Shown here one piece after another: positions 25,614 through 34,201 of a stretch of DNA of 64,000 bases. Position numbers and translations under genes: made by a program. The notes beneath the pieces are model-generated. The model was not told the DNA's origin and searched no databases. It saw only the letters and a program-made list of their open reading frames with translations. Each line of letters opens with the position of its first letter. The first letter of the stretch is position 1. The stretch covers positions 83,182-147,181 of the forward strand of contig NZ_LQBL01000033.1 of assembly GCF_001483745.1 (NCBI RefSeq), in the 5' to 3' direction. Source of the DNA: Serinicoccus chungangensis (GTDB taxonomy: Bacteria; Actinomycetota; Actinomycetes; Actinomycetales; Dermatophilaceae).

Positions 25614-26528
25614 TCAGGCGGTGGCGGTGTTCGCACCCCACACCCGACGGACCTCGGCCGCCACCGAGGCGACCGCGGGGCGTCGCTCGCTGGAGTCGCG
25701 GTGCACGAGCATCACGCGCCGGGTGGGGGGGTCCTTCACCGGCAGGGCGACGACGGCGTCGGGCAGCTCGGGGCGGCCCAGCCGCGGCATGAGACCGATG
25801 CCGAAGCCGGCCTCCACGAGGGCGATCTTGCTGGGGTGGGTGTCGGCGGTCGCGGCGATCCGGTAGTCCAGGTGGCGCTCGCGCAGCGCGGTGAGCAACC
25901 AGTCGCTGAAGACCCCCGGCGAGTCGTCCACCCAGTCCCGTCCCCCGCAGTCCCGCAGGTCGACGATGCCGTGACGACCGATGCGCAGGTCGTGGTCGTG
26001 CCGGGCGATGAGGTCGACGACGTCGTTGCCCAGCACGGTGGACACCAGCCCCTCCGGCAGGGCCTTGTGGTAGTCGGTCCAGTCGTGCACCACGGCGAGG
26101 TCGACCTCGCCGCGGCGCAGCGCCCGCAGCGATCCCTCCGGGGTGAGCTCGCGCACGGTCAGGCGCAGCAGCGGGTAGAGCTCACGCAGGGTGGGCACGG
26201 TCGGCGCGAGCAGGCCGACGATGCCGGTGGGGAACGACGACAGCACCAGCGGACCCGAGACGTCGCTGGTCAGGTGCTCCAGCTCGGCTCGAGCGGCCTC
26301 GTCCAGCTGCTCCACCTGCGCGGCCAGCCGCACCAGCACCTCGGCGGCGTCGGTGGGGACGACGTTGCGGCCACGGCGGACGAGGACGGGCTGTCCCACC
26401 TCCTTCTGGAGGCGGGTCAGCTGCTGGCTGACGGCGGAGGCCGTGAGGCCGAGACGGTCGGCCGCGGCCAGCACCGTGCCCTCTTCGACGACGGCCTTCA
26501 GACTGACCAGGTGCTCGGGCGAGAACAT
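25614..26528 (-). CDS. LysR-type regulator facing the microprotein genes
   Basis: 304 residues. The winged helix-turn-helix is at the N terminus (LAAADRLGLTASAVSQQLTR), followed by the linker helix and a periplasmic-binding-like effector domain (GPLVLSSFPTGIVGLLAP, then GEVDLAVVHDW). The ATG at 26526-26528 is chosen over 26537 because TAAGAT at 26536-26541 lies 7 bases upstream. That -10 overlaps the dyad at 26538-26555, the layout of an autoregulated LysR gene. It is divergent from the first microprotein gene, whose promoter shares the dyad. The coinducer is unknown. Confidence 0.9.
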   Translation of the reverse strand: MFSPEHLVSLKAVVEEGTVLAAADRLGLTASAVSQQLTRLQKEVGQPVLVRRGRNVVPTDAAEVLVRLAAQVEQLDEAARAELEHLTSDVSGPLVLSSFPTGIVGLLAPTVPTLRELYPLLRLTVRELTPEGSLRALRRGEVDLAVVHDWTDYHKALPEGLVSTVLGNDVVDLIARHDHDLRIGRHGIVDLRDCGGRDWVDDSPGVFSDWLLTALRERHLDYRIAATADTHPSKIALVEAGFGIGLMPRLGRPELPDAVVALPVKDPPTRRVMLVHRDSSERRPAVASVAAEVRRVWGANTATA

Positions 26529-26537
26529 GCAGCGCAT

Positions 26538-26555
26538 CTTACACGTACCGATAAG
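26538..26555. promoter_or_regulatory. LysR dyad, copy 1 (shared by lysR and microprotein gene 1)
   Basis: CTTACACGTACCGATAAG: an outer CTTA/TAAG inverted repeat of LysR type. It overlaps the lysR -10 box and is centred about 54 bases upstream of the predicted start of transcription of the microprotein gene, the normal activation site for LysR proteins. Copy 2 at 26882-26899 keeps the arms but changes inner bases, which is evidence that the arms are under selection. Confidence 0.7.
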
Positions 26556-26565
26556 AAATGTCCGT

Positions 26566-26594
26566 TTGTGCTAAAGCAATAATGCTGTCAGAGT
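26566..26594 (+). promoter_or_regulatory. Promoter of microprotein gene 1
   Basis: TTGTGC (26566-26571), 17 bases, then CAGAGT (26589-26594). The CANNNT -10 form matches -10 hexamers seen before other genes in this window. Copy 2 has the same -35, the same 17-base spacing and CAGACT. The 5' untranslated leader would be about 33 bases. Confidence 0.6.
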
Positions 26595-26633
26595 ATTCAT
26601 TGTCAGATCCCGACGCGAAGAAAGGTGGCCACC

Positions 26634-26726
26634 ATGACCGCTCTGTCCCAGGTTTTCCGCAGCAGCACCCACGTGATCCTCGAGATCGGTCGCGCGTGGC
26701 GCCCGATCGAGCACATCCGCGGCTGA
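26634..26726 (+). CDS. 30-residue microprotein, copy 1
   Basis: ATG to TGA, 30 codons, with AAAGG 8 bases before the ATG. The peptide begins MTALSQVFRSSTHVILEIGR and ends AWRPIEHIRG: basic, one Trp, no Cys, no signal peptide, and a possible amphipathic helix in the middle. A perfect terminator hairpin follows 15 bases after the stop, so it is monocistronic. A second copy with 28 of 30 residues identical lies 344 bases downstream with its own signals. The dyad, promoter, ribosome binding site and terminator together make a real gene very likely. Function unknown; no known family recognised. Confidence 0.8.
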   Translation: MTALSQVFRSSTHVILEIGRAWRPIEHIRG

Positions 26727-26741
26727 CCCCACACCTCGTGG

Positions 26742-26778
26742 AAGCCGCCCCCGGGGACCCTCCCCGGGGGCGGCTTTT
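26742..26778 (+). terminator. Rho-independent terminator of microprotein gene 1
   Basis: A 16-bp perfect stem (AAGCCGCCCCCGGGGA paired with its complement at 26761-26776) with a CCC loop, ending in TTTT. Confidence 0.9.
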
Positions 26779-26881
26779 CCCATCCCTCCGCGGATCCGTG
26801 CCGATGTCCGCCGGGCACCTCGCGAGGACGTGGACCCGACGGTAGGCCCTGCTCGGCGCCCCCAGAGACCATCAAGAAAAA

Positions 26882-26938
26882 CTTACTGGTATCCGTAAGC
26901 AACGTCCGTTTGTGCTAAAGCAAGAATGGTGTCAGACT
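26882..26938 (+). promoter_or_regulatory. LysR dyad copy 2 and promoter of microprotein gene 2
   Basis: CTTACTGGTATCCGTAAG at 26882-26899 (CTTAC/GTAAG arms), then TTGTGC at 26910-26915, 17 bases, and CAGACT at 26933-26938. The distance from dyad to ATG (79 bases) equals that in copy 1. Here no gene lies on the other side, so the dyad serves only the microprotein gene. Confidence 0.65.
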
Positions 26939-26977
26939 AGAACCTGTCAGACCCCGACACGAAGAAAGGTGGCCACC

Positions 26978-27070
26978 ATGACCGCTCTGTCCAAGGCTTT
27001 CCGCAGCAGCACCCACGTGATCCTCGAGATCGGTCGCGCGTGGCGCCCGATCGAGCACATCCGCGGCTGA
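26978..27070 (+). CDS. 30-residue microprotein, copy 2
   Basis: ATG to TGA, 30 codons, with AAAGG 8 bases upstream. The sequence is identical to copy 1 except Lys for Gln at residue 6 and Ala for Val at residue 7; codons 8-30 are identical at the DNA level. Flanking intergenic DNA has diverged more than the coding part, which suggests selection on the peptide or recent conversion. A terminator follows at 27084. It probably shares LysR control with copy 1. Function unknown. Confidence 0.8.
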   Translation: MTALSKAFRSSTHVILEIGRAWRPIEHIRG

Positions 27071-27083
27071 CCCGACGCCCTCC

Positions 27084-27120
27084 GAAGCCGCCCCCGGGAC
27101 CTCGTCCCGGGGGCGGCTTC
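27084..27120 (+). terminator. Terminator of microprotein gene 2
   Basis: A 17-bp perfect stem with a CTC loop (GAAGCCGCCCCCGGGAC and its complement). The lower stem GAAGCCGCCCCCGGG is shared with copy 1, while the loop and upper bases differ. The T-run is only two bases. Confidence 0.85.
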
Positions 27121-27181
27121 TGCGTGCGTGGCCTGCTCTCTCGCCCGCACCCTCGACCCCGCCCCGGTCTAGGCTGACCCG

Positions 27182-28016: not shown

Positions 28017-28727
28017 TCAGCCGCAGGCGGCCTCCTCCAGCGCGGCCAGGCCGGCCAGGTCGGCGTCGGTGAACTCGTCCTGCCCCGAGTTCTCGGCGGC
28101 CATGAGCGCATCCGCGTCGTCGGAGTGACCGAGCCCGAGGACGTGCACGAGCTCGTGGACCAGGACGGTCTCCTCGTCCAGCCCGCCCAGCCAGCCGCCC
28201 GGCATGTCGGTGTCGAGCACGACCATGCCGCCGACCGAGCGGGCGTCGCCACCCGGGCCCACGACGTAGGACGCCCCTCCCAGGCCGGCTGTCGGGCCGG
28301 CGAGCTCGGACACCTCCTCCTCGTCCGCCCACCCGATGAGCACCGGACCGCGCTGGCGGCCCTGGAACTCGCGGTCGTCGGTCTCGCCGGTCACCACGAA
28401 GGTGAAGCCGCTGGCCTCGTTGACCCGCTGGACGGCGGTGGCGACGAGGTCGGCATACCCCTCCGGCGCCCCCTGCGGGTTGACCTCGACCTCGATGCGG
28501 GCGGCGCACCCCCAGGTCACCGGCCGGCCGCCATCGCTGACCTGCATGAAGGTGTAGCCCTCACCTCCCGAACCGGCGACCCCGGCGGAGCGCTCGGAGT
28601 AGACCGTCCGTCGGACGTTGCCGAGGTCGAGGCCGGGCGAGAGGTAGACCACCATGCTGATGACCAGACCCAGGACGAGCAACAGGCTGAGGATGCTCGT
28701 GCACCCTCCGCCACGTCGCTCGTCCAT
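28017..28727 (-). CDS. Membrane-anchored metzincin-type metalloprotease
   Basis: A 236-residue protein with one N-terminal membrane segment (residues 11-28) and an extracellular catalytic domain. The zinc motif HELVHVLGLGHSDD (HExxHxxGxxH) lies near residue 190, and ALMAAEN shortly after is the probable Met-turn, placing it among matrixin-like (M10-type) peptidases. There is no propeptide cysteine switch. CAGACT at 28734-28739 lies 6 bases before the ATG (leaderless pattern). The substrate is unknown; a cell-surface role is inferred from the anchor. Confidence 0.82.
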   Translation of the reverse strand: MDERRGGGCTSILSLLLVLGLVISMVVYLSPGLDLGNVRRTVYSERSAGVAGSGGEGYTFMQVSDGGRPVTWGCAARIEVEVNPQGAPEGYADLVATAVQRVNEASGFTFVVTGETDDREFQGRQRGPVLIGWADEEEVSELAGPTAGLGGASYVVGPGGDARSVGGMVVLDTDMPGGWLGGLDEETVLVHELVHVLGLGHSDDADALMAAENSGQDEFTDADLAGLAALEEAACG

Positions 28728-33225: not shown

Positions 33226-33268
33226 CAATGTCTGTCAAGAGGTCGATCCATGCGCTAGCGTCATGGAT

Positions 33269-34201
33269 GTGGAGATCGACACCCTGCGCTGGTTCCAGCT
33301 GGTCGCCGACGGGGTGACCGTCACCGAGGTCAGCGACCTCGAGCAGGTCTCCCAACCGGCCGTCTCCCGGGCCCTGGCCCGGCTGGAGCGGGAGATCGGC
33401 ACGCCGCTGCTGCGCCGGGAGGGCCGCGTGCTGCGGATGACCCATGCGGGCACCGTCTTCAAGCGGCACGTGGACGCCGTGCTGCACGAGCTGGACGACG
33501 GCGTCGCCGCCGTGCAGCAGCTCCTGGACCCGGAGACGGGCACGGTGAGCGTGGCCTTCCAGCCCTCGCTGGGCACCTGGCTGGTCCCTGACCTCGTCAC
33601 CAGCTTCCGCAGCCGTCACCCCGAGGTCCGGCTCGACCTGCGCACCAAGGAGGACGAGACGGTGCCCGCGGTCGGGCCGCGCAGCGGGGTCGACCTCGAG
33701 CTGTCCACGCTGCGCCCGCACCAGGGTGAGGACCAGCCGCGGTGGCGCGCGCTGGTCGCCGAGCCGATGCGGCTGCTCGTCGGTCCGGGGCACCGGCTGG
33801 TCGGCCGGTCCCGGACCGCGCTCGCGGAGGTCGCCGAGGACCCGTTCGTCGTCATGACCCCCACGTCGGTCCTGCGCCGGCACACGACGCAGCTGTGCGC
33901 GGAGGCCGGCTTCACGCCCGAGGTGTCCTTCGTGGCCGCCGACCTCCCCACGCTGCGGGGGTATGTCGCCGCCGACCTCGGGGTGGCCGTCGCGCCGACC
34001 CTGTGGGGAGGGTCGGTGGCCACGCCCGTGCGCGGGCTGCACGTCCTGGCGCTCACCGACGTCGGCGCCACCCGCGACGTCGGCCTGTCCTGGGCTCCGG
34101 GGCGCCGGCTGCTGCCGGCCGCCGAGCTCTTCCGCGACCACGTCCTGGAGCGCGCCCGCTCCGGGCTTCTGCCCACCCCGGTGCCGCCGACGGAGGTGTG
34201 A
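33269..34201 (+). CDS. LysR-type regulator
   Basis: 310 residues. N-terminal HTH: VTEVSDLEQVSQPAVSRALA with the recognition helix SQPAVSRALARLE; effector domain from GTVSVAFQPSLGTWLVPDL. A GTG start at 33269 (MEIDTLRWF) is preferred to ATG 33263 because TAGCGT at 33256-33261 lies exactly 7 bases before it, while ATG 33263 is 1 base after the hexamer. TGTCAA 17 bases before TAGCGT is a plausible -35. It follows the sugar operon but may regulate something else; the target is unknown. Confidence 0.88.
   Translation: MEIDTLRWFQLVADGVTVTEVSDLEQVSQPAVSRALARLEREIGTPLLRREGRVLRMTHAGTVFKRHVDAVLHELDDGVAAVQQLLDPETGTVSVAFQPSLGTWLVPDLVTSFRSRHPEVRLDLRTKEDETVPAVGPRSGVDLELSTLRPHQGEDQPRWRALVAEPMRLLVGPGHRLVGRSRTALAEVAEDPFVVMTPTSVLRRHTTQLCAEAGFTPEVSFVAADLPTLRGYVAADLGVAVAPTLWGGSVATPVRGLHVLALTDVGATRDVGLSWAPGRRLLPAAELFRDHVLERARSGLLPTPVPPTEV

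Follow-up and report, generated by a model that had tools for sequence, protein, structure and literature searches.

We found that a LysR-type regulator gene of Serinicoccus chungangensis lies divergent from two tandem genes for a 30-residue peptide, that this pairing recurs in related genomes, and that the peptide can be matched to the tails of small membrane proteins encoded at the same position beside orthologous LysRs. This suggests that the peptide is a remnant of such a protein, namely its tail. All coordinates below are those of the window, i.e., the whole 64-kb stretch of DNA that was analysed.

The two peptide ORFs lie on the + strand at 26634-26726 (copy 1) and 26978-27070 (copy 2). 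Each is 93 bases long, encoding the 30 residues plus the stop, with a spacing of 344 bases, and both sit inside a 249-base direct repeat with 82% identity. The encoded peptides are identical at 28 of 30 residues, the differences being Q6 V7 in copy 1 and K6 A7 in copy 2, and not a single DNA difference is found in codons 8-30. Each copy is preceded by an 18-base dyad, the hexamer pair TTGTGC-17-CAGA[G/C]T and GAAAGGTGG ahead of the ATG, and is followed by a strong hairpin. The dyads located by a pattern scan, CTTACACGTACCGATAAG at 26538-26555 and CTTACTGGTATCCGTAAG at 26882-26899, are the putative LysR operators of copy 1 and copy 2, respectively, and direct reading placed the predicted + strand promoters at 26566-26594 (TTGTGC-17-CAGAGT, aligned without gaps in relatives) and 26910-26938 (TTGTGC-17-CAGACT). 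The dyad is centered ~54 bases before the predicted transcription start, close to the −55 of the original prediction, whose description of two tandem 93-base genes with dyad, promoter, ribosome-binding site and hairpin, divergent from LysR, also proved correct by direct reading. The hairpin after copy 1 (26742-26776, + strand) has a 16-bp perfect stem, and that after copy 2 (27075-27129, + strand) is a 26-base inverted repeat with 88% complementarity; both are putative terminators. An automatic consensus scan reported no promoter or terminator for either peptide gene, these hairpins included, because the hexamers deviate from the consensus of E. coli and the hairpins are followed by a short T-tract or by none. 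If each short transcript ends at its hairpin ahead of the next gene, as predicted, it would probably not be a leader.

Two other observations were made in this region. A TGTCAGA word is repeated ~15 bases apart across the predicted −10 element and the 5′ UTR of each copy (26592-26610 and 26936-26954), and the second word is largely retained in two other genera. Downstream of the peptide genes and a phosphotransferase, the gene at 28017-28727 (− strand) encodes a protein with an N-terminal hydrophobic stretch and a match to matrixin-type zinc proteases (PF00413, 30.9 bits).

The regulator gene occupies 25614-26537 on the − strand. Its product matches PF00126 (HTH_1) in the N-terminal part with 59.1 bits (cut-off 26.6) and PF03466 (LysR_substrate) in the C-terminal part with 110.6 bits (cut-off 28), and the gene has the LysR-type arrangement of a divergent target with a dyad in between, here the predicted operator at 26538-26555. 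The ORF codes for 307 aa; the inner ATG at 26528, which gives 304 aa, is the more likely start than 26537 because a putative −10 element of the LysR gene (TAAGAT, 26541-26536, minus strand), read directly from the sequence and overlapping dyad 1, also overlaps the outer ATG. Judging from this spacing, the LysR mRNA would be leaderless if translation starts at 26528. The NCBIfam cut-offs of the LysG/ArgP subfamily were missed (69.3 vs 197 bits and 62.7 vs 273.55 bits). A structure model of LysR was poor (pLDDT 34.7) and was set aside. The window contains a second LysR gene (33263-34201, + strand), which looks unrelated.

The predicted operator is almost confined to the peptide genes in the genomes scanned. 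Within the 64 kb, CTTACNNNTANNNNTAAG matches the two dyads only, the second on both strands, compared with 0.00 expected matches (mean of 100 shuffles). When the extended operator was searched with up to 3 mismatches in the 11 genomes carrying the peptide in its short form, we obtained 17 matches, of which 16 lie at the 16 peptide gene copies, with their first base 94-98 bases ahead of the ATG, and the remaining one is found elsewhere with 3 mismatches; the reversed pattern, used as a control, gave 6 matches in the same genomes. Because this whole-genome scan used one pattern, weaker or different operator sites may exist elsewhere in the genomes. The claim that the dyad arms are kept holds for the window, where the upstream arm of copy 2 is intact, and breaks down in other genomes. 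In four of the five two-copy genomes the upstream arm of copy 2 is changed (CTGAT, CTTAT, CTTGG, CTTCC) while the promoter-side arm stays, and in the single-copy genome G053 it is the promoter-side (downstream) arm that is altered. Since the arms have decayed in copy 2 and in G053, overlap with the LysR promoter may be part of the reason why copy 1 retains its left arm.

A tblastn search of 186 genomes of the family with the peptide matched 12 genomes in 3 of 53 genera. Eleven of these carry the short form (30 residues; 29 in G091) in a total of 16 copies, with two copies in five genomes; nine are from the window's genus and one each from two other genera. The twelfth genome (G118) has a longer form. 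A LysR orthologue with 59-100% identity adjoins the match at all 17 loci of this search, in keeping with the predicted finding of homologues beside a LysR. In 396 genomes of the order, a profile search returned the window genome, one other of its genus and, from other families, three partial matches that were weak (E 9.2e-4 to 7.6e-3), and a scan of genome contigs returned four Serinicoccus records. No match was found among plasmids by tblastn with the peptide, and the three phage matches were all weak (E 0.3-0.6).

We compared the neighborhoods of the window and 15 further loci, and only LysR recurs throughout. Any other shared neighbor is found in six loci at most and at varying positions, or is confined to the window's genus, except that L105 and L106 both have an amidotransferase at a distance of 5-8 kb; the gene caller used for this synteny comparison was a simple GC3 method that missed LysR in 2 of the 16 loci. 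Because no other neighbor recurs throughout, LysR and the small gene are the unit. In the open-licence literature, most subscription papers aside, we found no report that describes the peptide or a comparable LysR pair from this group.

The origin of the peptide became visible from the LysR side. A LysR search of 184 family genomes matched 41 of them at E 1e-40, and the best 30 places were taken as loci. Among these best 30, 17 belong to the clade of the window LysR, 11 of them beside the short form and 6 beside a membrane form. The latter six (L036-L041; LysR identity 46-59%) contain, at the position of the peptide gene, a divergent ORF of 52-74 residues, with start codons picked by eye, that encodes one N-terminal hydrophobic helix and a basic tail. 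Four of the six tails end LRPVDHLR, WRPVEHLPR, YRPVEHIRG or WRPVEHLRG, compared with WRPIEHIRG in the window, while L040 and L041 have diverged tails. The short-form profile matched the membrane forms over 27 columns with a probability of 95.5 and a pairwise E value of 1.4e-8, and this protein-level match ends at the same stop. The window peptide lacks the N-terminal membrane helix: its top 17-residue Kyte-Doolittle mean is 0.67, while the same measure gives 2.15-2.91 in 13 membrane forms.

The tail is also tied to LysR when it is used as the query. With a tail profile, 15 of the 184 family genomes gave strong matches at E 2e-9 or better, at 20 places in all, and LysR was present at 15 of 15 loci when one was checked per genome. 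The next 15 loci (E 2.9e-4 to 0.049) had no LysR within ~1.5 kb (0 of 15) and were discarded as noise; weak matches of this profile mostly fall within longer frames. The end motif W/Y-R-P-[VI]-E-H, which was picked post hoc after the family was seen, stands at the stop in 17 of the 6517 frames of the window and 19 longer loci, and all 17 adjoin LysR. The window peptide combines this tail with divergence from an orthologous LysR. The original prediction had noted that the peptide fits no known family, and indeed no model in Pfam, NCBIfam, PADLOC or PHROGs and no solved structure matches it; the match to the tail of a LysR-linked small membrane protein, however, gives it relatives, and the picture of an isolated invention has to be given up.

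In a tree of 57 LysR proteins, the short-form loci form one clade (11 rows, 94/86), which lies within a larger clade of 17 rows that also includes the six membrane forms (93/91). Because of this nesting, the simplest reading is that the membrane helix was probably lost on one branch. A second LysR group (L042, L044-L047, L049, L051, L053; 38-43% identity) also faces small one-helix proteins, with two such ORFs in a row upstream of LysR in L044-L046; the ORF pair of L044 matches no Pfam or NCBIfam family above cut-off. Another member of this group, L043, faces an MFS transporter. The membrane proteins of the first and second groups show no detectable homology (probability 15), and the second group is therefore related via LysR only. 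Across all 26 loci of the small-gene group, the intergenic stretch from the LysR start to a TTGTGCT block aligns without gaps. The block reads TTGTCCT in L033, L037 and L039 and TGGTGCT in L040 and L044-L046; it is changed in L049 and L051 and absent from L043.

The more distant LysR relatives are in most cases paired with an EamA exporter or with DapA, labels that Pfam confirmed for EamA in one case and for DapA (DHDPS) in L048 and L062 and that otherwise come from short motifs. In a second tree, from which L069 (branch 2.24) was omitted, 25 small-gene LysRs fall on one side of a branch (100/99), apart from 17 EamA and 13 DapA rows; in this count L061, whose divergent gene was unrecognised, is taken as EamA according to its position in the first tree, the label of L048 was changed to DapA, and L065 (215-residue match) is in neither tree. 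This branch would allow a single origin of the small-gene LysRs, depending on where the root lies. A second search across the order, with a second-group LysR as query, matched 62 of 396 genomes at E 1e-40. We read 30 loci, 17 of which repeat genes of an earlier search, and found an EamA or DapA motif in 26, an EamA-like gene by eye in 2 and neither in L177 and L191. Small-protein partners occur only in the window's family in the samples read, where extra small genes beside exporters were sought in part of the loci. As a separate observation, LysR is divergent from a DapA-type gene at 13 loci (L048, L056, L057, L060, L062-L064, L067, L068, L070, L072, L073, L075), and the operator region of these pairs resembles that of the EamA pairs.

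On the question of whether the product acts as protein or as RNA, the ratio of silent to replacement changes suggested in the original prediction lacks the usual protein signature. The pN/pS of the peptide gene is 0.75-0.96 between genera and scatters around 1 within the genus, compared with 0.5-0.66 for lysR between genera. This indicates constraint on the DNA letters, which could come from high expression or from an RNA role. In an RNA role, LysR would drive a duplicated trans-acting sRNA terminating in the hairpin, as a regulatory RNA or as a dual-function RNA together with the peptide. In addition to the pN/pS near 1, the almost frozen silent sites point in this direction, with differences of only 0-0.09 in copy 1 over 13 pairs within the genus and 0.18-0.42 in lysR; so do the conserved 5′ UTR and the 93 bases that three genomes share in full despite their differing LysRs. 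However, ribosomal genes are equally constrained at silent sites in the same comparison (rpsL 0.05-0.17, rpsB 0.06-0.17), and the copy 1 transcript without its hairpin folds worse than shuffled sequences (z +1.34; a fold as good or better is reached by 188 of 200 shuffles), the value with the hairpin being −2.49. Rfam contains no family that reaches its cut-off; the best hit, sodF_sRNA (23.8 vs 46 bits), covers the hairpin and was rejected. Across genera, gaps occur in the UTR and after the stop and never in the frame. Since the frame is free of gaps, all 16 copies keep the AGAAAGGTGG block and the ATG unchanged, and the protein-level match to the membrane forms ends at the same stop, the peptide ORFs are likely translated, and we regard a regulatory or dual-function RNA as rather unlikely.

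The near identity of the two copies in the window suggests, in a small sample, that they are homogenised by gene conversion. Within codons 8-30 they share a GCG codon that both copies lack in the other four genomes with two copies. The copies of G133 are also identical over these codons, and 2 bases separate the copies in each of the remaining three genomes. Comparison between genomes gives 1-5 base differences for copy 1 and 0-3 for copy 2.

The peptide is predicted to fold into one helix spanning residues 3-28 (pLDDT 75). Five short forms are amphipathic when compared with shuffled sequences (p 0.002-0.039), and the tails of the membrane forms are weakly so, with two of six under p 0.05. In the 13 membrane proteins the part before the helix has no net positive charge and the tail is positive. 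According to the positive-inside rule, the positively charged end of a membrane protein lies in the cytoplasm, and the tail of the membrane form is therefore predicted to be cytoplasmic.

From these features we propose the following mechanism. LysR would bind the dyad overlapping its own promoter and, with a ligand, activate the divergent peptide promoter; in the window, the second operator and promoter would drive the duplicate gene, and the regulon seems to equal one protein. The product would be a highly expressed, basic, amphipathic helix of 30 residues, descended from a small membrane protein by loss of the membrane helix and retention of the tail ending W-R-P-I-E-H-I-R-G. It would most likely reside at the inner face of the membrane, where it may bind a transporter or a sensor and change its activity. 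LysR probably responds to an amino acid or some related metabolite because the distant LysR relatives face EamA exporters or DapA; this need not be serine, the ligand of SerR, since residues in the ligand-domain stretches, compared by eye, differ between the LysR clades. While the LysR-peptide pairing, the operator, the tail match and the tree nesting can be read from the sequences, the chain from a metabolite-responsive LysR through an abundant amphipathic microprotein derived from a membrane-protein tail to a membrane partner is largely inferred, including translation, activation by LysR, membrane association, partner and ligand, and we hold it to be just short of probable. Against it stand the pN/pS near 1, the changed upstream arm of dyad 2 in other genomes, the weak amphipathicity of the membrane-form tails and the finding that in the window and the 15 further loci no conserved neighbor hints at a partner. 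Seen as a whole, the original prediction is partly supported: the LysR link and the near restriction of the operator to the peptide genes hold up, while arm conservation beyond the window, the proposed ratio of changes and the isolation of the peptide do not.

LysR and peptide are tightly linked one to one across unrelated neighborhoods, and the operator is almost restricted to the peptide genes, which would also fit a feedback role in which the peptide binds LysR and keeps its activity limited. We consider this unlikely: an ancestral membrane helix would be odd for the partner of a soluble DNA-binding protein, and high expression fits an effector with other targets. Release of the peptide as a signal or an antimicrobial is suggested by its short, basic and amphipathic nature, but no leader peptide could be read within the 30 residues, no exporter or processing gene is conserved nearby, and the charge distribution places the tail of the membrane form inside the cell, which makes release very unlikely. 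A toxin-like, membrane-active peptide is extremely unlikely, for although small one-helix proteins include the toxic DinQ (PMC3567139), no antitoxin gene was seen adjoining, and LysR control and ribosomal-like silent constraint suit high, tolerated expression.

If the proposed mechanism is true, the window encodes a transcription factor with a single microprotein as its entire output. What is new is that the peptide is no orphan and belongs to a family that matches no model in the four libraries searched. The system offers a testable unit of one regulator, one operator type and one product, with natural variants that have or lack the membrane helix, and it raises the questions of which part of the small membrane protein carries the function and how the LysR lineage shifted between control of an exporter or enzyme and control of a microprotein. 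A more far-reaching and more doubtful scenario is that, within a single actinobacterial family, a LysR of the amino-acid-exporter kind swapped its exporter or enzyme for a tiny membrane protein, which in the Serinicoccus line was pared down to a duplicated, amphipathic 30-residue tail that is expressed like a ribosomal protein and would control metabolite transport post-translationally.

Several known systems resemble parts of this arrangement. SerR, a LysR-type regulator of C. glutamicum, activates the divergent EamA exporter SerE in the presence of serine (PMC7260847, PMC11743413). Compared by description only, the two systems are alike in the divergent target and, if the proposed signal is right, in the amino acid response, and distant relatives of the window LysR face EamA genes; the window LysR itself, in contrast, faces a two-copy gene for a 30-residue peptide and no exporter. 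VtlR/LsrB, a LysR of Rhizobiales, directly activates small-protein genes (Atu1667, BAB1_0914), providing a precedent for LysR control of small proteins without sequence relation, as no Pfam match links them to the window peptide; VtlR also activates sRNAs and other genes, and its target is not reported there as a divergent partner (PMC7486931). DUF1127 proteins, which are small and basic and contact a sensor kinase protein-to-protein (PMC12501420), are a precedent of the same kind for the product, again without sequence relation: DUF1127 (YjiS-like) is an arginine-rich Pfam family, whereas the window peptides have no Pfam match at E 1 or better. MgrB-type proteins are small membrane proteins under regulator control that inhibit a membrane kinase (PMC8404706). 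By description, MgrB differs in that it acts in a two-component system, while the window peptide faces a LysR-type regulator and has no membrane helix.
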